DNA of 64,000 bases from Mesorhizobium sp. 65-26 (GTDB lineage: Bacteria; Pseudomonadota; Alphaproteobacteria; Rhizobiales; Rhizobiaceae). The first letter of the stretch is position 1. Each line of letters opens with the position of its first letter. The translations under genes and the position numbers were made by a program. Positions 29,728 through 42,306 of the stretch are shown piece by piece. The DNA lies in the NCBI GenBank assembly GCA_001899205.1, contig MKVL01000010.1, positions 203,885-267,884 on the forward strand, given 5' to 3'. Below the pieces are notes generated by a model, which was not told where the DNA came from, ran no database searches, and saw only the letters and a program-made list of their open reading frames with translations.

Positions 29728-30171
29728 CTAGAATTTGCGCGGGTCGATGCCCTTGGTTCCCGGCCCGTAGGGGCTGGGATAGATCTCACCGATGGTCATC
29801 AACTCGATCTCGCCGTCGAGCGTCGAGCCGATGATGGCGACATCGGGGTCGTCGCAGCAGAACTCCCAGATGACCTGGCGACATTCAGCGCAGGGCACGC
29901 CCGAATAGGGGCCGTGGCATACGATGGCGTCGATCTGGCGTTCGCCGGCAGCGGCCATGGCCATGACGGCGTTGCGCTCGGCATGAACGGATTGCTGCAA
30001 CGTCACCACCTCGACATTGCAGGCGGCGAAGACGCGGCCCGAGCGTGTGCGCACGGCCGAGCCGACCTTATGGTTCGAATAGGGCGTGTAGGCGTTCTCG
30101 CGCGCAGCGGCGGCAGCCTCCACGAGCTGGCGGTCGGCTGCCGGCAACTGGTCCAGGGTGGTCTTCCTCAT
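29728..30171 (-). CDS. cdd: Cytidine deaminase
   Basis: 147-residue CDA of the small tetrameric type. The zinc motifs are HAERNAV (His/Cys ligand and catalytic Glu) and PCAECRQVIWEFC (two Cys ligands). The N-terminal substrate loop YTPYSNHKVGSAV is also typical. It converts cytidine and deoxycytidine to uridine. It lies 83 bp downstream of a solute symporter on the same strand, suggesting uptake and salvage of nucleosides. A GGGAGAG ribosome site supports the ATG. Confidence 0.93.
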   Translation of the reverse strand: MRKTTLDQLPAADRQLVEAAAAARENAYTPYSNHKVGSAVRTRSGRVFAACNVEVVTLQQSVHAERNAVMAMAAAGERQIDAIVCHGPYSGVPCAECRQVIWEFCCDDPDVAIIGSTLDGEIELMTIGEIYPSPYGPGTKGIDPRKF

Positions 30172-30254
30172 CGGTCTCTCCCGGTCTGGCGGCCCCTCCC
30201 GAATTGATTCAGGACGGGACCGCATGTGATTGGTTTTCCGTAGGTCTTGCCGGC

Positions 30255-31634
30255 TCAGGCGGGCTGGCGCGCCGGCCGGGCGAAGAGCCCGGCGGCGAAA
30301 GGCAGCGCCGACAGAACAAAGCCGACCAGCGAGGCGGGGATGCCGCCCGGCTCGCCCATCAGCACCAGGATCGCCGTTGAGACGGCGCCGATGACGATAG
30401 TGGCCAGCATCGACCAGGCCGGTATGCGCCAGCCGAAAGTGGCCGACAGGACCGGCAGCAGCAGGCCCGGCACATAGACCGAGAAGCCAAGCATCAGGAT
30501 GGTGACGATGCCGGGCACCGACAGCGCGACGACCAGCGCCGCGAGGCCCAGCACGAGCAGCAGCACGCGGCTGGTCCACAGCCGCTCACGGTCACCGGCA
30601 TGCGGGCGCAGCCGCGAGATGATGTCACGCTGCAAGGTGGTGGCGGTGATCAGCAGCGTGGTGCTGGCCGTCGACATGGCGACCGCAAGGAAGGCCGCCA
30701 CCAGGATACCGATCACGCCGGTGGGCAGCAATTGCACCATCAGGTCGGGCATGGCGTTGACCGGATTGGTGTCGGCCGGCAGCAGCGCTTTCGCCGCGAT
30801 GCCGAGGAAGGTGAGGATGACACCGAAGACGGCCATCAGCACGAAGCCATTGATGAGGCCGCGCCGTGCCGTCTCGGGCGAGTCGGCCGAAAAGACGCGC
30901 TGGAAGCCGATCGTGTCGATGAAGCCGGCCGGCAGCAGCAGGAACCAGACGAACAGCGTCGAGGGCGGTACGTTGGCGAACAGGTTGTAGAAGCCCGGTA
31001 TGTCGCGGGTCGCCTCATAGACATGCGGCACGCCGGGTCCGAAGACGACGAAGAGCGGCGCAACGATGCCGATGACGACGAGGAAGATCACCGCCTGCAG
31101 CACGTCGGTCGCCACCACGGCGAGGAAGCCGCCGAGCATGGTGTAGACGATGACCACCAGGAAGGCGACGACCGCGCCGGTTCTGGGATCCATGCCCGAG
31201 AACAGCGTGAACACCATCGAGATACCGAACACCTGGGCGGCGGCCCAGGCCAGGTAGTTCCAGCTCGTCACCAGCGAGGCGGCGACGCGCACCGAACCCG
31301 GATATTCCTCGGCGACGATGTCGGGCGTCGTCACATGCATGCGCTGGCGCACGGTGCGGGCCAGGAACATGCCCATGAACAACAGGCCGATAGGGAAGGT
31401 GAACCACCACCACGTGCCCGAAATGCCGTAGCGCACCACCATTTCAGGCGTGCCGAACAGGCCGGCTAGCCCGGTCCAGGAGGCAAAGGCGGAAATGGTC
31501 AGCCAGAGCGGCCCCATGCGGCGGCCGGCGACGATGTAGTCCTCCTCGGTGCGGATCGAGCGGGCGAAGAACAGCCCTATGGCGGTGACCACCACCAGAT
31601 AGAGGACGACGATTGCGATATCGAAACTTCCCAT
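30255..31634 (-). CDS. Sodium:solute symporter family transporter
   Basis: 459-residue polytopic membrane protein of the SSS family, with many hydrophobic segments beginning at residue 4. Family segments include EDYIVAGRRMGPLWLTISAFASW near the N-terminus and AAFLAVAMSTASTTLLITATT in the middle. The start at 31634 has AGGGGAAAAGAGA upstream. The ligand is unknown; the cytidine deaminase downstream and the divergent SAH-hydrolase-like gene make a nucleoside or purine-type compound plausible. Confidence 0.9.
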   Translation of the reverse strand: MGSFDIAIVVLYLVVVTAIGLFFARSIRTEEDYIVAGRRMGPLWLTISAFASWTGLAGLFGTPEMVVRYGISGTWWWFTFPIGLLFMGMFLARTVRQRMHVTTPDIVAEEYPGSVRVAASLVTSWNYLAWAAAQVFGISMVFTLFSGMDPRTGAVVAFLVVIVYTMLGGFLAVVATDVLQAVIFLVVIGIVAPLFVVFGPGVPHVYEATRDIPGFYNLFANVPPSTLFVWFLLLPAGFIDTIGFQRVFSADSPETARRGLINGFVLMAVFGVILTFLGIAAKALLPADTNPVNAMPDLMVQLLPTGVIGILVAAFLAVAMSTASTTLLITATTLQRDIISRLRPHAGDRERLWTSRVLLLVLGLAALVVALSVPGIVTILMLGFSVYVPGLLLPVLSATFGWRIPAWSMLATIVIGAVSTAILVLMGEPGGIPASLVGFVLSALPFAAGLFARPARQPA

Positions 31635-31745
31635 TCTCTTTTCCCCTGATTTCGACAGGCCGGGTGCGCGCCGCGGCTCCGTGACGCGCTCGCCTTTCCG
31701 CATCCCCTCTCGGCGCGGGGCTTGACGACCCTTCGATGAATTTGT

Positions 31746-31772
31746 CACATGCAAAAAAGTTTTTTGCAAGTG
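31746..31772. promoter_or_regulatory. 27-bp palindromic operator between symporter and SAH-hydrolase-like gene
   Basis: A nearly perfect palindrome: 9-base arms TGCAAAAAA (31750-31758) and TTTTTTGCA (31760-31768) around a single G, extended outward by CAC/GTG after one mismatch. It lies just downstream of a TTGACG (31722-31727), where the rightward -10 would be. It is positioned to repress both divergent genes; the IclR regulator at 33063 is the likely binder. Confidence 0.65.
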
Positions 31773-31813
31773 CTGATAGAGACTGCACCAAAATCAACCG
31801 AGTGGAGGCGTCG

Positions 31814-33013
31814 ATGACCCAATTCCCCGAGACGGCGACGGCCGCGCTGGCAGCCGCCGGTGGCGCGCGTGTCGCCTGGATCCGTTCGCGCATGGCGCTG
31901 CTTGCGGCGCTGCGCGAGGAATTCCGCCGCGAGCGGCCCTTCGCAGGGCGGCGCATCGGTGTGTCGCTGCATATCGAGCCGAAGACGGCGGTGCTGCTCG
32001 AAGTGCTGGCCGAGGGCGGCGCCGAGATCGTCGGCACCGGCAATCACGGCTCGACGCAGGACGATATCGTCGCCTTCCTGCGCGGGCAGGGCATCGGGGT
32101 GTTCGGCAGCCGCGCCGACACGCTGGACGACCACCATGCCAATCTCGCGCGGGTGCTCGACGCCAGGCCCGACATTCTGCTCGACAATGGCGCGGACCTT
32201 GCCGCCGGCACCGTGGAGCGCGGTACGGCGGGCGCCATCATCGGCGGCACGGAGGAGACCACTTCGGGCGGCGACCGGCTGCGCGGGGAGCTCATGGGCA
32301 AGGTGCCGTTCCCCTCCATCGTCATCAACGACAGTCCGCTCAAGGCGATCGGCGAGAACAAGCACGCTGTCGGCCAGTCGGTGGTGGAGAGCTTCATGCG
32401 CATCACCAACCTCATGGTGCCGGGCCGCCGATTCTGCGTCGTCGGCTATGGCTGGTGCGGGCGCGGCATCGCGCAATACCTACGTGCGCTCGGCGGGCGG
32501 GTCGCCATTGTCGAGGTCGACGAGATCAAGGCGCTGGAGGCCGCGCTCGACGGCTACCGCGTCGCGCCGCTCGCCGATCTCGCGCCGTGGGCGGAGGTCT
32601 TCATCACCGCCACGGGGCGCCCGGGCGTGCTGCCGGCCGAGGCCATCGGCGCCATGGCCGATGGCGCGGTGCTGGCCAATTCCGGGCATTTCTCCTGGGA
32701 GATCGACGTCGATGGGCTGCGGTCAATGACCCGCGCGGAGACCGATCTCGACGGCACGCTGCGGCGCTTCGACCTCGCCAATGGACGCCATGTCGTGCTT
32801 GTCGCCGACGGGCGCATGTTCAACCTCGCGGGCGTCGCGCCGAAGGGCAACTCGATCGAATCCATGGATATCGGCTTCATGCTGCAGGCGCTGTCGCTGC
32901 AGAGGGTGGCGCTGTCGGCCGCCGGCCTCGCACCTGGCGCGCAGCCGGTGCCCGACGACATCAACCGGCGCATCGCCCGCGCCATGCTGGCCGCCATGGG
33001 CGCGGCGCGCTGA
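31814..33013 (+). CDS. S-adenosylhomocysteine hydrolase-like protein (divergent)
   Basis: 399 residues, shorter than canonical bacterial AHCY (about 430-470). It keeps the NAD motif GYGWCGRG, the gate-like NSGHFSWEID segment and the NDSPLK lysine (K177, the AHCY active-site Lys). The aspartate that follows in canonical enzymes is Glu here (E181), and the usual C-terminal Lys/Tyr-rich NAD-binding tail is absent. This suggests an altered substrate such as another nucleoside thioether or a methylated nucleoside. GTGGAGG precedes the ATG. It forms a cluster with an IclR regulator, symporter and cytidine deaminase rather than methionine-cycle genes. Confidence 0.8.
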   Translation: MTQFPETATAALAAAGGARVAWIRSRMALLAALREEFRRERPFAGRRIGVSLHIEPKTAVLLEVLAEGGAEIVGTGNHGSTQDDIVAFLRGQGIGVFGSRADTLDDHHANLARVLDARPDILLDNGADLAAGTVERGTAGAIIGGTEETTSGGDRLRGELMGKVPFPSIVINDSPLKAIGENKHAVGQSVVESFMRITNLMVPGRRFCVVGYGWCGRGIAQYLRALGGRVAIVEVDEIKALEAALDGYRVAPLADLAPWAEVFITATGRPGVLPAEAIGAMADGAVLANSGHFSWEIDVDGLRSMTRAETDLDGTLRRFDLANGRHVVLVADGRMFNLAGVAPKGNSIESMDIGFMLQALSLQRVALSAAGLAPGAQPVPDDINRRIARAMLAAMGAAR

Positions 33014-33062
33014 TTGTGCTACTGCGCATCCTCGATCGGTCGCCGGGGAAGGATTGCGGAGC

Positions 33063-33842
33063 ATGGCGGGCAAGGGCGGCGCGGAAGCGCCGGACTATTC
33101 GGTTCCTGCGCTGGAGAAGGCGTTCGACGTCATCGAACTGCTGGCCGGCCAGAAGGAAGGGCTGAATCAGGGGCAGATTTCCGAGGCGGTGGGCCGCTCG
33201 ATCCACCAGATCTACCGCGTGCTGCAGGCGCTGGAGCGACGTGGCTACATCTTCCGCGACCGACCGGCGGGGCTCTACTACCTGTCGACGCGCATGTTCG
33301 AGCTGGCGCATCGGCACGAGCCGCTGCGCGGACTGGAACAGGCGGCGCTGCCTTCGATGCGGCGCCTGTCCGATGTCATCCGCCAGTCCTGCAACCTGGG
33401 CATCCACAATGCCGGCCGGGTGCTGATCCTGGCGCAGGTGGAAAGCCCGGCGGCCTTCGGCTTCCGGGTGCGCGTCGGCGCGGAGTTCCCGCTGTTCGGC
33501 ACCGCCACCGGCCGCACGCTGATGGCCTTCCAGCCAGAGGACGTGGCCGACAGGTGGCTGGAAGCCGGCGAGGCCGGAGACGAGGCGGCTCGGATCCGGA
33601 CCGCCCTTGCCGGCATCCGCGCGACGGGCCATGCCGAGGTCGCCGATGCGCAGCAGCCTGGCGTCACGGATCTCGCCTTTCCCGTGCTGGGGCCATTCGG
33701 CGCGGCGGTCGCGGCGCTGACCGTGCCTTACATCGCCACCACCTACAGCACGCTCGACCTCGCCACCGTGCGGCGCCAAGCGGCGGATGCCGCAAACGAG
33801 ATCGGCGCGGTCTTGGCCGGAGCCGGCCAGCCGTCCCCCTGA
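33063..33842 (+). CDS. IclR family transcriptional regulator
   Basis: 259-residue IclR protein: winged helix in about 12-75 (LEKAFDVIELLAGQKEGLNQGQISEAVGRSIHQIYRVLQAL) and an effector-binding domain to the end. The ATG follows GCGGAG. It is 49 bp after the SAH-hydrolase-like gene, so it is probably in the same transcript and could bind the palindrome at 31746-31772 to control the nucleoside-type locus. Confidence 0.92.
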   Translation: MAGKGGAEAPDYSVPALEKAFDVIELLAGQKEGLNQGQISEAVGRSIHQIYRVLQALERRGYIFRDRPAGLYYLSTRMFELAHRHEPLRGLEQAALPSMRRLSDVIRQSCNLGIHNAGRVLILAQVESPAAFGFRVRVGAEFPLFGTATGRTLMAFQPEDVADRWLEAGEAGDEAARIRTALAGIRATGHAEVADAQQPGVTDLAFPVLGPFGAAVAALTVPYIATTYSTLDLATVRRQAADAANEIGAVLAGAGQPSP

Positions 33843-33999: not shown

Positions 34000-34761
34000 T
34001 TGACGAACGATCCTGAAACGATCGAATCCGGCACCATGCCGGTGGCCAGCCTTGGGCGTAGCGATCGCGACCAGATGTTTTCGCTCTACGAGACCTATTA
34101 CGACGCCACGCATCGCGATCGTTTCGAGAGCGACCTTGCCGAGAAGGACGCGGTCGTCGTCATCCGGCGCAAGGAGGCGATCATAGGCTTTTCCACCTTC
34201 CTGGTGAGGGAGCAGCGCATAGACGGCCAGCCGATCCACTATCTGTTTTCCGGCGACACCGTGCTGCATTCGGCGAGCTGGGGCGACCCGGTGCTGCTGC
34301 GCGCATGGTTCCGCGCCGCCGGCGCCGTCAAGGCCAGGATCGGCGAGGACAGGCTGTTCTGGTTCTCGATCATGATGGGCCATCGCACCTTCCGCATCCT
34401 GCCCAACTTCTTTCGCGAGTTCGTTCCGGCGATCGATCCGCTCGAGCATTCGACAAGTCCCGCCCGGCCTGGTGTGGCGCGGCTGGAGCGTATCCGAAAC
34501 GCCATCGCCAAGGCGCGCTATGGCGCGCATTTCGACCCGGCCACCGGGCTCATCGACTTCGGACCCTCGCAGGGGCATCTGCGGCAGGAATGGGCGGGCG
34601 TGGAGGAAACGGCGACGCGCAACCGCTTCGCGGCCTTCTTCCTGCGGGCCAATCCGCATCACTACCGGGGTGTCGAACTCGCCTGCCTGGCTGAGTTCGA
34701 CACCGCCAACCTCAAGCGCTACGGCGCCACCAGCTTCGCCGAGGGATTGAGCGGTGGCTAG
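34000..34761 (+). CDS. GNAT-like acyltransferase of unknown substrate
   Basis: 253-residue protein whose N-terminal half (about 15-150) has a GNAT-like strand/helix pattern (FSLYETYYDATHRDRFESDLAEKDAVVVIRR, then IIGFSTFLV), while the C-terminal 100 residues are unassigned. Its last 8 bases overlap the GH3 gene, so the two products probably work together. The start is uncertain: TTG at 34000 with a weak AGGGG upstream, or ATG at 34036. The function is inferred from fold and context only. Confidence 0.65.
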   Translation: MTNDPETIESGTMPVASLGRSDRDQMFSLYETYYDATHRDRFESDLAEKDAVVVIRRKEAIIGFSTFLVREQRIDGQPIHYLFSGDTVLHSASWGDPVLLRAWFRAAGAVKARIGEDRLFWFSIMMGHRTFRILPNFFREFVPAIDPLEHSTSPARPGVARLERIRNAIAKARYGAHFDPATGLIDFGPSQGHLRQEWAGVEETATRNRFAAFFLRANPHHYRGVELACLAEFDTANLKRYGATSFAEGLSGG

Positions 34762-36373
34762 AGTGGGCGACGGCGCCAGCCCGTCGCCGGGGCGCGTCGA
34801 AGCGGCATGGACGCGCATCGCGGAAGGTGCGGCGGCGGCCGATAACCGTTTCGCTACACGGCTCGGCGACGTCGAGGCGGCGCAGCGCGCTACCCTTTCC
34901 GGGCTGCTCGCCGACAATGCCGGCACCGTGTTCGGTGGGGAGCATGGCTTTTCCGGCATCGGCTCGGCCGAAATCTTCCGGGAGCGCGTGCCGATCTCCG
35001 GCTACAACGGCTTCAAGCCCTATGTTGAGCGGCTGATCGCAGGCGAGGCGGGCGTGCTGACCAGCGAGCCGGTGCGCTTCCTGGAACAGACCGGCGGCTC
35101 CTCCGGCGGCTCGAAATACATTCCCTACACCGACAGCAGCCTGCGGGCCTTCACCGACTGCCTGCATCCGTGGCTCGCCGACCTCATCCGGCGCCGGCCC
35201 GGCGTGACGCGCGGCCATGCCTATTTCGCGCTGAGCCCGGTCGGCCGTTCTCTTGAGGCGCGTGTCGGCGGCCACCGCCTGGGCAGTCCGGTGCCCTTTG
35301 CCTATTTCGGGGCGCTGCGCGACAGCCTGATCGAATTGTCGGCGGTGCCGATGGAATTGCGGCTGCTGGCCGACTTCGAGACCTGGCAGCGGCGCACCTG
35401 CCTCGACCTGCTGGCGGCGGAGGACCTTGCGCTGATCTGGGTGTGGAGCCCAACCTATCTGACCGAGTTGTTGCGCGCCATGCGCCGCGACGCCGCCAGC
35501 CTGCTTCCAGAGCTGGCGATGCGGCTCGCTGCCGTCCAGCCCTCCGATGCGGTCCGGCGTCGCATCGCCGCGTTGGAGACCGCGCTCGGCGGGGCCGGCC
35601 CGCTCGGCGCCCTGTGGCCGAGGCTCGACACGATAAGCTGCTGGACCGATGCCGCGAGCAAGGGGTTCGCCGACGAGATCAGAGCGCTGTTTCCGGGCGT
35701 CTTCATCCAGTCGAAGGGCCTGATGTCGACAGAAGCCGCCGTCTCGTTCCCTTACGGCGAAGGGCCGGGCTGTCTTCTGGCGGCCGGCAGCGGCTTCTTC
35801 GAGTTCATCGATGCCTCGGGCGCCGGTCGTTTTGCGTGGCAGATCGAGGCCGGCCAGACCTACCGGCTCATCGTCACCACAGCCGCCGGTCTCTACCGCT
35901 ACGACACGCACGATATGGTGGAGGTGACCGGCTTCACCGGCGACACGCCGCGCTTGCGCTTTCTCGGCCGCGAAGGGCTGGTGTCGGATCTGTGCGGCGA
36001 AAAGCTGACCGAGCCCTTCGTGGCAAGCTGCCTCGGCGAAGTGGGATTGGCAGGCGAGCCCTACGCGCTGCTCGTGGCGACATCGGCGCCGCGCCCGGGT
36101 TATCGCCTCTATGTCGAGGCGGGGCCGGCGGGCATCGATGCCGACCTGCTCGGCCCAAGCCTGGACCGGGCGCTCTCGGCCAACCCGCAATATGAATATG
36201 CCCGTCGGATCGGCCAGCTCGACCCGTTGCGGGCAAAGACGGTCGTCGATCTCTACGGACGGCTGAAGCGCCACCGCCTGCGGGCCGGCATGAGCATCGC
36301 CGGTATGAAGGCCCCGGTGCTGATCGGCAACGCCGATGCCGGGCTGGTGTCGGCGTTCGAGACGGACAGCTGA
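34754..36373 (+). CDS. GH3 family acyl-acid amido synthetase (auxin-responsive GH3-like)
   Basis: 539-residue enzyme of the GH3 branch of acyl-adenylate enzymes. The three nucleotide-binding motifs are visible: TGGSSGGSKYIPY from residue 113, the middle SKGLMSTEAAVSFPY, and GLYRYDTHDMVEVTGF. Plant GH3 proteins adenylate a carboxylic acid (such as indole-acetate or jasmonate) and couple it to an amino acid. Bacterial members are sparse and mostly uncharacterised. It starts with GTG, overlapping the GNAT-like gene, and a convergent P450 follows. The product is probably an amide conjugate. Confidence 0.85.
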   Translation: MARVGDGASPSPGRVEAAWTRIAEGAAAADNRFATRLGDVEAAQRATLSGLLADNAGTVFGGEHGFSGIGSAEIFRERVPISGYNGFKPYVERLIAGEAGVLTSEPVRFLEQTGGSSGGSKYIPYTDSSLRAFTDCLHPWLADLIRRRPGVTRGHAYFALSPVGRSLEARVGGHRLGSPVPFAYFGALRDSLIELSAVPMELRLLADFETWQRRTCLDLLAAEDLALIWVWSPTYLTELLRAMRRDAASLLPELAMRLAAVQPSDAVRRRIAALETALGGAGPLGALWPRLDTISCWTDAASKGFADEIRALFPGVFIQSKGLMSTEAAVSFPYGEGPGCLLAAGSGFFEFIDASGAGRFAWQIEAGQTYRLIVTTAAGLYRYDTHDMVEVTGFTGDTPRLRFLGREGLVSDLCGEKLTEPFVASCLGEVGLAGEPYALLVATSAPRPGYRLYVEAGPAGIDADLLGPSLDRALSANPQYEYARRIGQLDPLRAKTVVDLYGRLKRHRLRAGMSIAGMKAPVLIGNADAGLVSAFETDS

Positions 36374-36469
36374 GCCGCCGGGCCGCAGCCGGTTGGGCGT
36401 TCCGGCTCACGACCTGATTCAAGCGGCCGTGCCAAGCCTTTGTTCTCGATGGGCCAATGCCGTCAGGCG

Positions 36470-37681
36470 TCACGCGGGGCTGGCTCTCAGCACGAGACGG
36501 TCGAGGCCACGGATCGAGGAATTGTCCATCCAGTCGGCGGCGACCGGCTCGATCGCCCGCCAGCGGTCGAGCAGCGCGCTCAGCACCATGGCGCCCTCCA
36601 TCTCGGCCAGAGCGCGGCCGATGCAGACATGAGCGCCACGGCCGAAGGCGAGGTTCTGCCGTCCGGCCCGGCCGAGGTCGAAGCGCGCCGGATCGGCGAA
36701 CTGCGCGGGGTCGCGGTTGGCGGCGCCGATCAGGAGCACGATCAGGCTGCCCGCCTCGATGCTCTCGCCAGCAAGCTCGACCGGCCTCAGCGGCCATCGG
36801 CAGATCTTCTGCACCGGGCTTTCCAGCCGTAGTGTCTCGGCGATGGCGGCCGTAACCAGCCGCCTGTCGGCACCGAGCGCGCGCCATGCCTCCGGTGTTT
36901 GGGCGAGATGATGCAGCATGTTGCCAAGCAGGTGCACGGTGGTTTCGTGGCCGGCGAAGGCGAGGAAAGCGAGGTTGCGCCCGGCGACCTCTATGCCGAG
37001 CGCCTCGACGAGGCCGGGCAGGCCGGCCAGCAGCGGCGGCAGGTCACCATCGGCGAGCAGGCGCCGCGCCAGTCCGGTGAAATAGTCCGACATCGCCTCG
37101 ATCGCGTCCGGCCCGCCGCTGAAAGCATCGTCGAAGCCGGTATCGAGTATGGCGCGGACCGAGGCCGACCAGCCGCGCAGCAACGGCATGTCGGTGGCGG
37201 GCACGCCGAGCAGGCGACAGATGACCTGTTCGGGCACGGCGCGGGTGAAAGCGGCGACGACGTCGATCTCGCCCTCCGTCTGGACATTGGCGACGAAGGC
37301 GTCGACGGCCTCGGCGACGACCGGCCGCAACGCGGCGATGCCCTTGCCGACGAAGGGCTGTTGCAGGGACTGGCGGATGGCGGCATGCGCCTCGCCTTCC
37401 TGGTACATCAGCCAGTCGTGCAGCGCGGTCCGCTCGAGCATGGCGCCGTCGCCCGGCGGCACATGCGAGAGGGCACGATCGGCGAGCCCGGCCGACACAA
37501 GGTCGTAGCGGCTGACATAGACATCGTCCCACGGCGCGCGCCAGACCGGCGCCAGCGCGCGCATCTCGTCATGGATTGCGTGGATATCCGAGGCGCCCCG
37601 GAAGAAACCGGCACGGACCCCTTGCCAGTCGCGTGCCGCAAGGTCATGCCTGCCATTGGTCGAGGGAAAGTCGCCATGCAT
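36470..37681 (-). CDS. Cytochrome P450
   Basis: 403-residue soluble bacterial P450. It has the I-helix oxygen-activation motif AFAGHETT, the K-helix ETLRLE (ExxR) and the heme loop FGRGAHVCIGRAL with the axial ligand C353. The length is normal and no membrane anchor is seen. The gene faces the GH3 gene (96 bp between stops) and starts 68 bp from the divergent ATP-grasp-like gene. It may oxidise the acid substrate or the amide product of the GH3 enzyme. No ferredoxin or reductase gene is nearby. Confidence 0.94.
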   Translation of the reverse strand: MHGDFPSTNGRHDLAARDWQGVRAGFFRGASDIHAIHDEMRALAPVWRAPWDDVYVSRYDLVSAGLADRALSHVPPGDGAMLERTALHDWLMYQEGEAHAAIRQSLQQPFVGKGIAALRPVVAEAVDAFVANVQTEGEIDVVAAFTRAVPEQVICRLLGVPATDMPLLRGWSASVRAILDTGFDDAFSGGPDAIEAMSDYFTGLARRLLADGDLPPLLAGLPGLVEALGIEVAGRNLAFLAFAGHETTVHLLGNMLHHLAQTPEAWRALGADRRLVTAAIAETLRLESPVQKICRWPLRPVELAGESIEAGSLIVLLIGAANRDPAQFADPARFDLGRAGRQNLAFGRGAHVCIGRALAEMEGAMVLSALLDRWRAIEPVAADWMDNSSIRGLDRLVLRASPA

Positions 37682-37749
37682 CGTCTTGTAAACAACCCCG
37701 TTTCTGCCGGCGGCACGCGCGTCGCGGCATGTCGCGCCAAGATCGATCC

Positions 37750-38814
37750 ATGACAGAAGCCACCCCAGGACCGATCTACTATCTGTGCACCGGGCGACAT
37801 GCTTACACGATGGGCGTGTTCCTTGGCTATTACGAGCATGGCCTGGGCGATGTTGTGCGCATCATTCCCTATGATCAGGTGGCGCGGCTCGGCACGGTCG
37901 CGCCGGGCGCGTTCATCTTCACCGACTTCGAAAGGCTGACGCGGGGGGAGCGCGAGGCGGCGATCGCGCTGTACCGGTCCATTGCCGGGCAGAGGCCGGA
38001 CCTGCCGCTGCTCAATGACCCGGCGACCGCGCCCAGCCGCTTCGAGCTTCTGAAGCGCCTCAACGCCGCCGGCCTCAACGCTTTCGACGTGCACAGGCTG
38101 GGCGACCGGGCCTCGATCCGACGCTTCCCCGTGTTCGTGCGCTGGGAGAGCCGGCACGATCCGCCGTTGACCGGTTTGCTCGAGAATGCCGATGCGCTGG
38201 AGCGGGCGATCGCCGCGCTGCCGAGGGCCGTGCGCGACAATCCCGACCTGATGATCGTCGAATATGGCGCCGCTCCGTCGGCCGACGGGCGCTTCCGCAA
38301 ATATTCCGCCTACCGCGTCGGCGACACCATCTATCCCCAGCACTGCTTCATCAATCCGAGCTGGTATATCAAGTTTCCCAGCACGCGCTTCACCGAAGCC
38401 GATCGCGCCGAAAGCCGCGCCTATGTCGAGGATAACCCGCATGCCGGGCAGATCCGCGCCGTCTTCGACCTGGCCGGCCTCGGCTATGGCCGCATCGACT
38501 ACGGGCTGGTCGATGGCCGGGTGCAGACTTTCGAGATCAACAACAATCCGACCGTCCTGGCGCGGCCGCCCGGCTGGGAGGCCGGCGTGAACTACAGCCG
38601 CTACGCCGACATGCATGCCGCCGCCCTGCGGGCGCTGATGCGGCCAGCCGGCGGCGTGCCCTTGCGCCTCGGCGGCGGCAGCCTTGCGGTCGATGCCGTG
38701 CATGCTAGCGCCATGCGCGCGGTGCGCCGCCGCATCGCGCTGTTCAGGCTGCGGCGAAGCCTGTCGATCAAGACGCTGAAGAAACGGCTCGCCGCCCGCT
38801 TCGGCGGCGCCTGA
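37750..38814 (+). CDS. ATP-grasp-like protein of unknown function
   Basis: 354 residues. A central/C-terminal ATP-grasp-like region contains RFPVFVRWESRHD, LMIVEYG and the metal-binding pattern FEINNNPT (E262, N264), resembling the E-x-N-x-NP motif of carboxylate-amine ligases. The C-terminal tail is basic and probably helical (RRRIALFRLRRSLSIKTLKKRL). The N-terminus (YYLCTGRHAYTMGVFLGYYEHG) is unassigned. Divergent from the P450 gene, it may provide a second amide- or ester-forming step in the same pathway. Confidence 0.6.
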   Translation: MTEATPGPIYYLCTGRHAYTMGVFLGYYEHGLGDVVRIIPYDQVARLGTVAPGAFIFTDFERLTRGEREAAIALYRSIAGQRPDLPLLNDPATAPSRFELLKRLNAAGLNAFDVHRLGDRASIRRFPVFVRWESRHDPPLTGLLENADALERAIAALPRAVRDNPDLMIVEYGAAPSADGRFRKYSAYRVGDTIYPQHCFINPSWYIKFPSTRFTEADRAESRAYVEDNPHAGQIRAVFDLAGLGYGRIDYGLVDGRVQTFEINNNPTVLARPPGWEAGVNYSRYADMHAAALRALMRPAGGVPLRLGGGSLAVDAVHASAMRAVRRRIALFRLRRSLSIKTLKKRLAARFGGA

Positions 38815-38890
38815 CCAGTCGCGCGCCAGAACGACTCTTGCCATGCGACTGGCGGGACGGCAGAAGCGCGCCATGCCGACGGAGCCATGC

Positions 38891-39362
38891 ATGCTAATCG
38901 AGACCTGGCGAGGCGACCGCGCCGCGCTGTTGCCGCTGTTCGAACTGGCCGACGATTCACCCGCGCAGGTCGCGGCTTACATCGGACTTGGCGAGGTGCT
39001 GGTGGCGCTGGAGGCGGCGGGCTCCGATGTCCTCGGCCACCTGCAACTCGTCGGCGATGGCGAGGCGCTCGAGTTGAAGAGCATGGCGGTGATCGCGGCG
39101 CGCCGGGGCGAAGGCATCGGCCGCGCGCTCGTCGAGGCGGCAATCGCTGGCTGCCGCGCGCGTGGCGCCTGACCGTCTCCACCGCGGCTGCCGACACCGG
39201 CAACCTGCGTTTCTACCAGCGCCAGGGCTTCCGCATGCTGCGCATCGTGCGCGACGCCTTCGGTCCAGCGACGGATACGCGGCGGACCTGCCGGTGGAGG
39301 GCATTCCGCTGCGCGACCAGGTGGTGCTCGACCTCGACCTGTGCGCGCAGCCTTCGGGATAA
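38891..39362 (+). pseudogene. GNAT N-acetyltransferase, broken by two frameshifts
   Basis: Three consecutive frames together encode one GNAT protein of about 157 residues. Frame 1 gives MLIETWRGDRAALLPLFEL through the acetyl-CoA loop RRGEGIGRALVEAAIAGCRARGA (to about 39170). Frame 2 gives LTVSTAAADTGNLRFYQRQGFRMLRIVRDAFGPA. Frame 3 gives DGYAADLPVEGIPLRDQVVLDLDL to the stop at 39362. Each join needs one base more than is present, near 39170 (a C run, GCC/TGACC) and near 39270. The sequence is otherwise well preserved, so this is a recent pseudogene or two sequencing errors. Confidence 0.75.
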
Positions 39363-39406
39363 ATCCAGGCACCAGCCACTGGATCACGAGAGCGTGATCG
39401 CTTTTC

Positions 39407-39436
39407 GGGAATAAACTGGCCGCCGCGCGGGTCTTT
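39407..39436 (+). promoter_or_regulatory. Candidate ECF sigma promoter (GGGAATAAAC -35)
   Basis: GGGAATAAAC at 39407-39416, followed after a GC-rich spacer by GTCTTT (39431-39436), lies about 40 bases upstream of the first gene of the ECF operon. The -35 resembles ECF-type GGAAT-led promoters and would fit autoregulation. The -10 is tentative. Confidence 0.35.
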
Positions 39437-39474: not shown

Positions 39475-40425
39475 ATGACCCACCACCACGACAATGACGG
39501 CGGCGACGGCATCACCCGACGCCACGCGCTGGAATGCATGATCTGGGCCGGCACCGGCGTGCTGTGGACCCTTTCGGGCGGCGTGCCCGTATCGCTCAAC
39601 CTGCTCGGCGCCGCGCAGGCCGCCGAGGCGATGACCAACGGCTTCACCTTCCTGCAGATTTCCGACAGCCATATCGGCTTCGACAAGGCCGCCAACCCGC
39701 ATGCCATCGACACGCTGAAGGAGGCGATGGGCAAGATCCAGGCGCTGCCGCAGAAGCCATCCTTCCTGATCCACACCGGCGACATCACCCATCTGTCGAA
39801 GCCGGCGCAGTTCGACAACGCGGCGCAGATCATCGGCGGCGCCGGGTTCGACGTGCATTATGTGCCGGGCGAGCACGACCTGATCGACGACGCCAACGGC
39901 CAGGCCTATCTCGACCGCTACGGCAAGGGCACCAAGGGCGCCGGCTGGTATTCCTTCGACCAGAACGGCGTCCACTTTGTTGGCCTGGTCAATGTCGTCA
40001 ACCTCAAGGCCGGCGGGCTCGGCAACCTCGGCGGCGAGCAGCTCGCCTGGCTGGCCGACGACCTCAAGGCGGTGAGCGATTCCACGCCGATCGTCGTCTT
40101 CGCCCACATTCCGCTGTGGGCCGTCTATCTCGAATGGGGCTGGGGCACCGACGACGCCGCGCAGGCGCTGGCCATGCTCAAGCGCTTCGGCTCGGTGACC
40201 GTGCTCAACGGCCACATCCACCAGATCATGCAGAAGGTGGAGGGCAACGTAACCTTCCACACCGCGCGCTCGACGGCCTTCCCGCAGCCGGCGCCGGGCA
40301 CGGCGGCCTCGCCCGGCCCGATGACCGTGCCGGCGGGCCAGCTTCGCGGGCTGCTCGGCACCAGCAGCGTCATGGTCAAGCAGGGCGGGCAGGAGCTTGC
40401 CATCATCGATTCCACCCTGGCCTAG
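39475..40425 (+). CDS. Tat-exported metallophosphoesterase
   Basis: 316-residue phosphoesterase with a twin-arginine-type leader (ITRRHALECMIWAG followed by a hydrophobic segment to about 48). The calcineurin-like motifs appear in order: SDSHIG, HTGDITH, GEHD (where GNHD is usual), FAHIPL and NGHIHQ. It probably acts in the periplasm on a phosphoester. First gene of an operon with a cupredoxin, an ECF sigma factor and an anti-sigma factor, it may be part of the regulon. Confidence 0.9.
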   Translation: MTHHHDNDGGDGITRRHALECMIWAGTGVLWTLSGGVPVSLNLLGAAQAAEAMTNGFTFLQISDSHIGFDKAANPHAIDTLKEAMGKIQALPQKPSFLIHTGDITHLSKPAQFDNAAQIIGGAGFDVHYVPGEHDLIDDANGQAYLDRYGKGTKGAGWYSFDQNGVHFVGLVNVVNLKAGGLGNLGGEQLAWLADDLKAVSDSTPIVVFAHIPLWAVYLEWGWGTDDAAQALAMLKRFGSVTVLNGHIHQIMQKVEGNVTFHTARSTAFPQPAPGTAASPGPMTVPAGQLRGLLGTSSVMVKQGGQELAIIDSTLA

Positions 40426-40441
40426 AGCCGGATCCGGCTCT
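40424..40441. repeat. Perfect 18-bp palindrome between metallophosphoesterase and cupredoxin genes
   Basis: AGAGCCGGATCCGGCTCT begins at the metallophosphoesterase stop codon and is fully self-complementary. It could be an mRNA-processing or attenuating element within the operon, or a protein site; no U-run follows, so it is not a standard terminator. Confidence 0.5.
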
Positions 40442-40465
40442 CAATCAAAGAGATAGGGCACGACA

Positions 40466-40810
40466 ATGATCTGCATGCGCATGCCGGCCAGACAGATGGC
40501 CATGATGCTGAGCGCCTTCACCCTCGCAACGGCCGCTCCCGCGCCGCTGAGGGCGGCCGACGCGCCGATGGTGACGATCGAGAATTTCGCCTTCACGCCG
40601 CAGGTGCTGACGGTGAAGCCCGGCACCACGGTGACCTTCCGCAACGACGACGACATTCCCCATCTCGTCGTCGCCAACGACAACTCGTTCCGCTCCAAGG
40701 CGCTTGACACCGGTGACACCTATGCCTTCACCTTCACCAAGGCCGGCGACTTTGCCTATTACTGCGGGCTTCACCCGCATATGCAGGGAAAGATCGTCGT
40801 CGCCCCGTGA
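40466..40810 (+). CDS. Periplasmic cupredoxin (amicyanin/pseudoazurin-like)
   Basis: 114-residue blue-copper protein with a signal peptide (hydrophobic about 12-28, cleavage near residue 31). The type-1 copper ligands are complete: H66 (IPHLV) and C100, H103 and M106 in YYCGLHPHM, with amicyanin-like spacing. It would carry electrons in the periplasm or bind copper. It lies between the metallophosphoesterase and the ECF sigma gene, suggesting an envelope redox or copper stress regulon. Confidence 0.92.
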   Translation: MICMRMPARQMAMMLSAFTLATAAPAPLRAADAPMVTIENFAFTPQVLTVKPGTTVTFRNDDDIPHLVVANDNSFRSKALDTGDTYAFTFTKAGDFAYYCGLHPHMQGKIVVAP

Positions 40811-40844
40811 GGGCGTGCCCGGAGTGCCACGCGATGGAGCCGAG

Positions 40845-41429
40845 TTGAACGAGACGAGCGCCCGGGCCGGCGGTTCCCCGCCGGCCGGTGACGGACTGGC
40901 GCGGGCCGACCGCTTCAGCCAGGTGGTGCTGCCGTATCTCGCGGACGCGCTGTCCCTGGCGCGCTGGTTGACGGGCAATGCCGCCGATGCCGAGGACGTG
41001 GTCCAGGAGGCCTGCATCAAGGCGCATGCCGGCATCGCCGGCTATGCCGGCGGCAATGCCAGGGCCTGGCTGCTGACCATCGTGCGCAACACCGCCTATT
41101 CGTGGATGGCGCGCAACCGCCCGCGCGCGGTGATGGCCGTCGGCGATCTAGCCGACCTCGACGAGGTGACGGCGGTGCACGGCGGCGTGGTCGACATGGG
41201 TGAGGGACCGGAGGCCGGGCTGATCGCCAGGGCCAATGCCGCGGCGCTCGAGGCGGCAATCGCGGCGCTGCCACAACCATTTCGCGAGACGCTGGTGCTG
41301 CGCGACATAAACGGCCTCAGCTATCGCGAGATATCGGACATGCTCACCGTGCCGATCGGCACGGTAATGTCGCGGCTGGCCCGCGCGCGCGGCCTGCTGA
41401 TGTCGGAACTTGGAGAACGCCATGCATGA
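40845..41429 (+). CDS. ECF-type RNA polymerase sigma factor
   Basis: About 194 residues with region 2 (LPYLADALSLARWLTGNAADAEDVVQEACIKAH) and region 4 (LPQPFRETLVLRDINGLSYREISDMLTVPIGTVMSRLARAR). No ATG fits; TTG at 40845 is chosen because GGAGC lies 5 bases before it and the conserved region begins shortly after. Its stop overlaps the start of the anti-sigma gene by 8 bases. It probably directs transcription of its own operon. Confidence 0.9.
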   Translation: MNETSARAGGSPPAGDGLARADRFSQVVLPYLADALSLARWLTGNAADAEDVVQEACIKAHAGIAGYAGGNARAWLLTIVRNTAYSWMARNRPRAVMAVGDLADLDEVTAVHGGVVDMGEGPEAGLIARANAAALEAAIAALPQPFRETLVLRDINGLSYREISDMLTVPIGTVMSRLARARGLLMSELGERHA

Positions 41430-42306
41430 TGACGGACTGCCGCGCGACGCCGAAGGCATGCGGCTGATGCTCAACGCGCTGGTCGATGGCGAGCTCGATG
41501 CCGCCGCCGCGCTGGCCGTCGAGCGGCGCATCGCCGCCGACCCGGCGCTGGCGGCCGAGCATGGCCGGCTGGTGGCGCTGCGTGGCGCGTTCGCCCGCCT
41601 GCCGGCCCAGATGCCGAGCGACGATTTCCTGGCGCGCATCGCCGCCATTGGGCGGGCCGAGGCGGCTGGCGCCGTCCCGGTAGCGTCTGACGAAGTCCGC
41701 CCCACGCAGCCGCTTGCGCAGCCGCAGGCCGGCGCAAGGCGGCCGGCGAGCGCGGCGCGCGGCGGCGCGTGGCGTCTGACGGCGCGTCGCTTCGGCGGGC
41801 AGGACTGGCGGGCCCTGGCGGCCTCGATGGTGGTGGGCGCGGTGCTGGCCAGCGGCGCCACGCAATGGCTGATGGTGGCCGGCGCGCCCGACAGCCTGGC
41901 CGTGGCCGTCGCCGACGGGCACCGGCGCAGCCTGCTTGCCGCAAGCCCGATCGACATCGTCTCGACCGACCGCCACACAGTGAAGCCCTGGCTGGACGCC
42001 AGGGTAGGGCTTTCGCCGCCGGCGCCCGACCTCGCGCAGGACGGCTTCACCCTCATCGGCGGCCGCGTGGAGGTGGTGGCGAACCGCGCCGTGCCGGCGC
42101 TGGTCTATCGCCATCGCGAGCATCTCATCACGGTGGTGGCGGTGCCGCAGGACAAGGGCGGCGTAGTCGCGCCGGCCGACCTCTCGGCGGAAGGTTTCTC
42201 AATGGTGAAGTGGAGCGACGGCGCCTTCGGCTATTTCGCCATCTCCGACATGGAGCGCCCCGAACTCGACGACTTCGTCGGCCGCTTCCGCGCCGCTGCG
42301 CGCTGA
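41422..42306 (+). CDS. Transmembrane anti-sigma factor
   Basis: 294 residues. The cytoplasmic N-terminal domain (about 1-70; MLNALVDGELDAAAALAVERRIAADPALA) matches anti-sigma proteins that clasp ECF factors. One transmembrane helix lies around residues 131-151 (LAASMVVGAVLASGATQWLM), followed by a periplasmic domain of about 140 residues. The usual HxxxCxxC zinc motif is absent. It is coupled by overlap to the sigma gene. The periplasmic domain probably senses the signal. Confidence 0.9.
   Translation: MHDDGLPRDAEGMRLMLNALVDGELDAAAALAVERRIAADPALAAEHGRLVALRGAFARLPAQMPSDDFLARIAAIGRAEAAGAVPVASDEVRPTQPLAQPQAGARRPASAARGGAWRLTARRFGGQDWRALAASMVVGAVLASGATQWLMVAGAPDSLAVAVADGHRRSLLAASPIDIVSTDRHTVKPWLDARVGLSPPAPDLAQDGFTLIGGRVEVVANRAVPALVYRHREHLITVVAVPQDKGGVVAPADLSAEGFSMVKWSDGAFGYFAISDMERPELDDFVGRFRAAAR

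Follow-up and report, generated by a model that had tools for sequence, protein, structure and literature searches.

What does a gene for a GH3-type amide synthetase do in a Mesorhizobium genome, where its immediate neighbours are a GNAT-like acyltransferase gene, a cytochrome P450 gene and an ATP-grasp-like ligase gene? The question is raised by positions 34000–38814 of the window, the whole 64 kb stretch analysed here from the 6.84 Mb genome of Mesorhizobium sp. 65-26, in which GNAT1, GH3, P450 (reverse strand) and the ATP-grasp-like gene follow one another in that order. A sequence-only reading had described a GNAT-like gene overlapping GH3 by 8 bp, a convergent P450 and a divergent ATP-grasp-like gene at this place, and the layout was confirmed, every frame being open. 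In our view there is an even chance that the four genes are a biosynthetic cassette, the product being an amide-type small molecule or lipid; because the same 16 of 146 Mesorhizobium genomes hold GNAT1, P450 and ATP-grasp side by side, the four genes are regarded as a real unit. The parts of the locus are as follows:

34000..34761, plus strand: GNAT1, GNAT-fold acyltransferase-like protein, 253 amino acids, TTG start, from the open reading frame list (an in-frame ATG at 34036 is a possible alternative start)
34754..36373, plus strand: GH3, adenylate-forming amide synthetase-like protein, 539 amino acids, GTG start, Pfam GH3, GH3_M and GH3_C
35090..35131, plus strand: GH3 motif I region TGGSSGGSKYIPYT, residues 113–126, aligned with plant GH3
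35714..35737, plus strand: GH3 motif II region KGLMSTEA, residues 321–328, conserved among bacterial rows
35888..35923, plus strand: GH3 motif III region GLYRYDTHDMVE, residues 379–390, aligned with plant GH3
36470..37681, minus strand: cytochrome P450, 403 amino acids, convergent with GH3, Pfam p450, heme loop FGRGAHVCIG
37682..37749, no strand: divergent gap of 68 bases between the P450 start and the ATP-grasp start
37750..38814, plus strand: ATP-grasp-like ligase, 354 amino acids, divergent from P450, start set by comparison with 8 relatives

In the sample of 146 genomes of the genus, P450 was found in 16 genomes at E ≤ 1e-100, ATP-grasp in 16 above 500 bits (39 at E ≤ 0.001) and GNAT1 in 17; the three genes share an identical set of 16 genomes, and coordinates place them as neighbours in every one. 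GH3 matches at E ≤ 0.001 were found in 10 genomes, one of them cut short, and the full order GNAT1–GH3–P450 (reverse)–ATP-grasp occurs in the window and 8 other genomes. The small pathway suggested by the sequence-only reading is thus represented by the four-gene order in 9 of 146 genomes, and 16 of the 146 hold the core of three genes; conservation of the neighbourhood had been set beforehand as a check, and since the neighbourhood is kept, the pathway idea was not refuted. The seventeenth genome with GNAT1 (G425, locus L024) has a remnant cassette, namely GNAT1 and a GH3 with homology ending about halfway, and no adjoining P450 or ATP-grasp homologue. The core genes of the 15 other loci are 57–77% identical to those of the window, with unchanged order, and the ratio of nonsynonymous to synonymous substitution rates (dN/dS), calculated from finite pairs only among 9 GH3-bearing sequences, reaches at most 0.28 for GNAT1 (34 of 36 pairs finite), 0.25 for GH3, 0.30 for P450 and 0.33 for ATP-grasp. 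All four genes are under purifying selection, and this identity range with unchanged order, together with dN/dS of at most 0.33, indicates selected, working genes.

The genes around the core change from locus to locus. Within the fetched flanks of the 16 loci, and with gene names assigned by the analyst from sequence, a pseudouridine-synthase-like gene is present in 13, a phosphoglycerate-mutase-like gene in 12 and a LysR-like regulator in 6, and no gene beyond the core is present in all 16. A wider unit was rejected on both sides: the AHCY-like, IclR and transporter genes upstream and the metallophosphoesterase, cupredoxin-like and sigma-factor genes downstream form single-member clusters among the compared loci, and the unit is therefore bounded at 34000 and 38814. 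Gene calls outside the window were made with the analyst's scripts, not a standard gene finder; GNAT1 of locus L112 was missed by them and recovered by tblastn. Inside the unit, the GNAT1 stop and the GH3 start overlap by 8 bases in the window and by 11 bases in each of 8 relatives, the latter value being taken from coordinates with analyst-picked start codons and confirmed by reading the sequence in 6 of the 8. The P450/ATP-grasp gap measures 65–77 bases in the 8 GH3-bearing relatives, again with start codons picked by the analyst, and comparison of the window with these relatives revealed little conservation and no clear shared site in the gap. By eye, a TTGAAC-like element of varying fit lies about 70 bases 5' of GNAT1 in 8 relatives (L016–L023) and is not evident in the window.

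Outside the genus sample, in 397 genomes of the order, few of them from the genus, ATP-grasp was matched at E ≤ 1e-60 only in this genome, in a genus mate and, more weakly, in one further case. Among 72,556 plasmid records, GH3 matches occur in 10, all below 60% identity, and ATP-grasp matches in 2 (neighbourhoods viewed for 4 of the 12); the two lists share no record, and at the limits used the cassette is thus absent from all of them. One of the GH3 matches, from Streptomyces, sits in a polyketide cluster of another kind.

Of the four genes, GNAT1, P450 and ATP-grasp are constant, but GH3 is missing between GNAT1 and P450 in 7 of the 16 cassettes. GH3 is carried by 9, a sulfotransferase gene beside GNAT1 by 6, neither by one (L112) and both by none. 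In the six loci concerned (L113–L118), the extra gene lies immediately upstream of GNAT1 on the same strand; the two copies tested match Pfam Sulfotransfer_3 (70 and 63 bits), and the other four fall into the same BLAST cluster. In the window genome, that sulfotransferase has no more than a weak partial match (E 1.5e-4). When the labels are placed on a tree built from the three core proteins, GH3 requires 3 changes, the sulfotransferase 2 and the three-state label 3, including the loss in L112; GH3 and sulfotransferase have therefore switched at least twice on that tree. It can be seen that GNAT1, P450 and ATP-grasp form a constant core, and that GH3 and the sulfotransferase are alternative members.

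The family assignments of the four proteins differ in firmness. The N-terminal, central and C-terminal Pfam domains of GH3 score 118.3, 65.7 and 27.0 bits (cut-off 23.6 for each), and a sequence search of the PDB matches JAR1, GH3.8 and GH3.6. Three regions were compared over 12 rows, which we take to be nucleotide motifs I, II and III: T113, G115, K121, P124 and T126 are invariant in the first, K321, G322, L323, T326 and E327 in the second, for which HMMER gave no alignment to the plant proteins, and G379, L380, Y381, R382, Y383 and D387 in the third. The check on ATP-binding residues likewise did not refute the pathway idea, as the motif I and III regions align with the plant enzymes, and the protein is best described as a GH3-family member with predicted ATP-dependent amide formation. 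GNAT1 gave no Pfam or NCBIfam family match; its structure model shows a GNAT fold (predicted local distance difference test score, pLDDT, 93.5), and its only invariant run of four residues in 61 rows is SGDT. What we presume to be the canonical CoA loop is not obvious in GNAT1. P450 scores 95.5 bits against a Pfam cut-off of 22.8, the heme loop is identical in 9 of 9 rows, and the best PDB matches of its profile are 3ejb (biotin-biosynthesis P450-like) and PikC. For the ATP-grasp-like protein, the model is of low confidence (pLDDT 58), with weak fold matches to ITPK1, RimK and Ddl (template modelling score, TM, below 0.4), and it contains EINNNP, which we take to be an ATP-grasp hallmark, residues of the EINxNP type being retained in 9 divergent rows. 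The ATP-grasp assignment is likely, although less firm than those of the other three genes. Searches of solved structures by sequence with the GNAT1 and ATP-grasp profiles gave noise only.

On this basis a catalytic route can be proposed, of which we infer every chemical step, the step order and the capping position of GH3. The ATP-grasp enzyme would join a carboxylate to an amine, GNAT1 would transfer an acyl group, and P450 would oxidize the product with redox partners supplied from elsewhere in the genome. The capping step would fall to GH3, which would adenylate a carboxylate with ATP and couple this to an amine, probably that of an amino acid; in the sister cassettes, sulfation by the sulfotransferase would replace this cap.

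A second trio in the genus resembles the core. The next class of ATP-grasp homologues, at about 215–280 bits, is present in 15 genomes, of which 6 were examined (L119–L124), and in each of the 6 the ATP-grasp gene diverges from a P450 gene and from a GNAT gene of a different kind. The ATP-grasp proteins are homologous to that of the cassette (39–43%), but the GNAT has weak Pfam GNAT matches and the P450 is just 29–37% identical to that of the window. No GH3 match was found at these six loci, where the sulfotransferase was not searched for. The arrangement indicates that ATP-grasp, GNAT and P450 types recur together. Remoter ATP-grasp homologues lie among polysaccharide-type genes by annotation (L111) or adjoin an Acetyltransf_6 gene by Pfam (L125, with L127 and L128 looking alike), and that of Deinococcus (L110) has no GNAT-type or polysaccharide-type neighbour; these neighbours give hints of ligation chemistry that are not decisive.

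Beyond the genus, GNAT1 and GH3 recur as a pair. A scan of one genome per species yielded 294 GH3 relatives, and the locus counts below refer to the best 80 of these 294. Six of the 80 loci carry the cassette, all from Mesorhizobium. GNAT1 was found in 73 of 80 loci. When the 30 loci with a flank shorter than 5 kb are left out, it is present in 49 of the remaining 50, in 39 of them within 300 bases. Another GNAT-like gene, GNATB, is present in 41 of the 44 non-Mesorhizobium loci flanked by 5 kb or more to the left and right. The phylum was sampled with a draw of 349 genomes, of which 6 have GNAT1, always adjoining GH3, and two of the 6 are this genome and a genus mate; the listed GNAT1 and GH3 rows name the same genomes, identity of the full sets not being established. 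The pair is surrounded by B12-binding radical-SAM genes, to which membrane and AurF-like genes are often added, or by a Rieske oxygenase gene, often with a large RnfD/FG-GAP protein, and many of the loci have fatty-acid desaturase or PAP2-like genes. Context labels derive from tblastn matches to a few query genes; the radical-SAM label of L034 comes from a single remote match, and four loci so labelled (L063, L071, L093 and L095) have both radical-SAM and Rieske matches. By context, the 81 rows of the GH3 tree, a quick tree without bootstrap, comprise 40 radical-SAM, 24 Rieske, 10 other and 7 P450/ATP-grasp rows; these 7 form a single clade (Shimodaira–Hasegawa-like approximate likelihood ratio test, SH-aLRT, 100), to which Neisseria elongata and Eikenella are closest (99). 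The Neisseria elongata set consists of GH3, Rieske, a small membrane protein and GNAT1, and the Eikenella GH3 has no GNAT1 nearby despite nearly 10 kb on both sides. Other GH3 relatives come from planctomycetes, verrucomicrobia, enterobacteria, Ruminococcus, Pseudomonas and Burkholderia, some of the latter two being plant-linked. Several phyla show a recurring cluster in which GNAT1 and GH3 are joined by GNATB and several B12-binding radical-SAM genes (L042:9342-19754, L040, L053, L083, L108 and others), and a Citrobacter portucalensis plasmid provides an annotated example of a GNAT1–GH3 cluster. The clusters with GNATB, for instance those of Zhengella (L042), Citrobacter (L083) and Planktothricoides (L035), resemble the cassette in having homologues of GNAT1 and GH3, which mostly lie near each other in one orientation, but the window's P450 and ATP-grasp are unmatched in the 74 non-Mesorhizobium loci, their place being held by GNATB, radical-SAM, AurF-like, Rieske or desaturase genes.

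Because the pair persists while the rest changes, the GNAT1 and GH3 enzymes of other bacteria, too, most likely work on one and the same intermediate. It is tentatively proposed, with somewhat less assurance than the cassette itself, that GNAT1–GH3 is a two-enzyme module combined across many phyla with exchangeable oxidizing sets (B12-binding radical-SAM; Rieske oxygenase and desaturases, some loci having both of these sets; or, in Mesorhizobium, P450 with the ATP-grasp ligase), the GH3 half itself being exchangeable for a sulfotransferase in Mesorhizobium. If so, either an amide or a sulfate group would complete one and the same scaffold in Mesorhizobium, and the products would be amide metabolites or lipids of a new, widespread class. 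The near-constant GNAT partner over many phyla and the natural GH3-less and sulfotransferase cassettes make the roles of bacterial GH3 proteins directly testable.

Several points weigh against the biosynthetic cassette as proposed. The convergent and divergent orientations mean that the locus is not one operon, the genome counts are phylogenetically non-independent, and the ATP-grasp call is based on a low-confidence model and motifs. GNAT1 occurs without GH3 in the 7 genus cassettes mentioned above, which makes an invariable joint action of the two less convincing, and the converse is also seen: of 73 GH3 loci whose upstream flank reaches 1 kb, 3 have no GNAT1, and in the phylum draw 2 of the 8 genomes with GH3 (of 349) have no GNAT1 match. 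The capping role of GH3 is drawn only from its exchange with the sulfotransferase; GH3 could act early, with the sulfotransferase cassettes making something else.

The literature offers few points of comparison. It has been reported (PMC12493201) that OlsH of Singulisphaera acidiphila, a lyso-ornithine lipid synthetase, is a bacterial GH3-type adenylating enzyme that forms N-acyl ornithine, that in plant GH3 enzymes and OlsH the acid is adenylated and then passed to an amine, and that other bacterial GH3-like proteins call for more study. The same paper reports more than 7500 bacterial GH3 matches, at odds with the statement of the sequence-only reading that bacterial examples are scarce. Like the window GH3, OlsH belongs to an operon-type setting with other enzymes, and nucleotide motifs are reported there, but its partners are an N-methyltransferase and an alpha/beta hydrolase (PMC12493201) instead of GNAT1, P450 and ATP-grasp. 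The window GH3 was rejected as an OlsH, with 36 bits against the NCBIfam NF052613 equivalog cut-off of 620, and Pfam gave no match to the OlsI-type alpha/beta hydrolase family among the four cassette genes, of which GNAT1 and ATP-grasp match no family whatever. The plant amido synthetases JAR1, GH3.8 and GH3.12 share the three Pfam GH3 domains and the aligned motif I and III regions; they are nevertheless distant (best phmmer E 1e-21, profile 3e-28), with a long middle part unaligned. PMC8841776 was set aside as bacterial GH3 literature, GH3 in that paper being a glycoside hydrolase. No description of the Mesorhizobium cassette, the GNAT–GH3 pair or a GH3–radical-SAM cluster was found in a search that left preprints and most subscription papers outside. 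The enzyme families are known; as far as the literature searched goes, it is the gene setting of GH3-type amide synthesis that is new.

The alternative that survives best, although we think it rather unlikely, is that an OlsH-like GH3 joins a fatty acid to an amino acid and that GNAT1 and P450 tailor the N-acyl amino acid, as a membrane lipid or a signal. N-acyl ornithine formation by OlsH is the only bacterial GH3 function found in the literature searched, the cassette GH3 belonging to a different branch. A fatty-acid-desaturase match was found in 39 of the 80 GH3 loci (hand count; many loci are short) and PAP2-like genes at several, but neither these nor GNATB were matched at the 6 Mesorhizobium loci, and a GNATB homologue was not found in the window genome, an empty result that shows nothing by itself. 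The top PDB match of the P450 profile is of a fatty-acyl type, among many similar scores; set against this are the low OlsH model score given above and the account of OlsBA as the known route to ornithine lipids in S. meliloti and several alphaproteobacteria (PMC12493201).

It seems still less probable that the cassette serves conjugation or detoxification, with P450 oxidizing an outside compound before amino-acid conjugation by GH3, sulfation by the sulfotransferase or acylation by GNAT1. The alternation of GH3 and sulfotransferase genes around a single P450–GNAT1 core and the sporadic presence of the cassette (16 of 146 genomes) would fit such a role, but a dedicated, co-inherited ATP-grasp gene has no obvious place in it, the same three enzyme types recur with a different GNAT, the distant GNAT1–GH3 pairs sit in biosynthetic-looking multi-gene clusters, and no further gene accompanies all 16 loci, the commonest reaching 13 and 12.

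The oxidation and conjugation of a plant hormone such as auxin or jasmonate, or a plant-directed signal, is very doubtful, and the proposal of the sequence-only reading for a plant hormone or rhizobial signal found no supporting feature. The nearest solved structures are plant GH3s with that activity, which says nothing about the substrate because all 10 solved-structure matches are plant proteins by name. The hosts are Mesorhizobium, and some distant loci come from plant-linked Pseudomonas and Burkholderia; yet on the tree the GH3 clade groups first with Neisseria elongata and Eikenella and next with bacteria of many habitats, and 136 of 146 genus genomes have no GH3 match at E ≤ 0.001. Chance neighbourhood, to which the genes on both strands and the strain-to-strain variation of flanking genes might point, is refuted by the co-occurrence of the core genes, the order being kept in 9 genomes and the core in 16 of 16 holders amid changing flanks, and it retains practically no likelihood.

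Some further observations concern the surroundings of the cassette in the window. Adjoining it upstream, at 29728–33842, are a cytidine-deaminase-like gene (by eye), a sodium/solute symporter gene, an adenosylhomocysteinase-like gene and an IclR regulator gene, perhaps a set for nucleoside uptake and breakdown; the last three have no counterpart at other cassettes. Downstream, at 38843–39414, a small GNAT gene is apparently frameshifted, its N-terminal half being an open reading frame to 39172 and the apparent remainder lying in another frame. It is followed at 39475–42306 by genes in a row for a metallophosphoesterase, a cupredoxin-like protein (by eye), an extracytoplasmic function (ECF) sigma factor and a possible anti-sigma factor.

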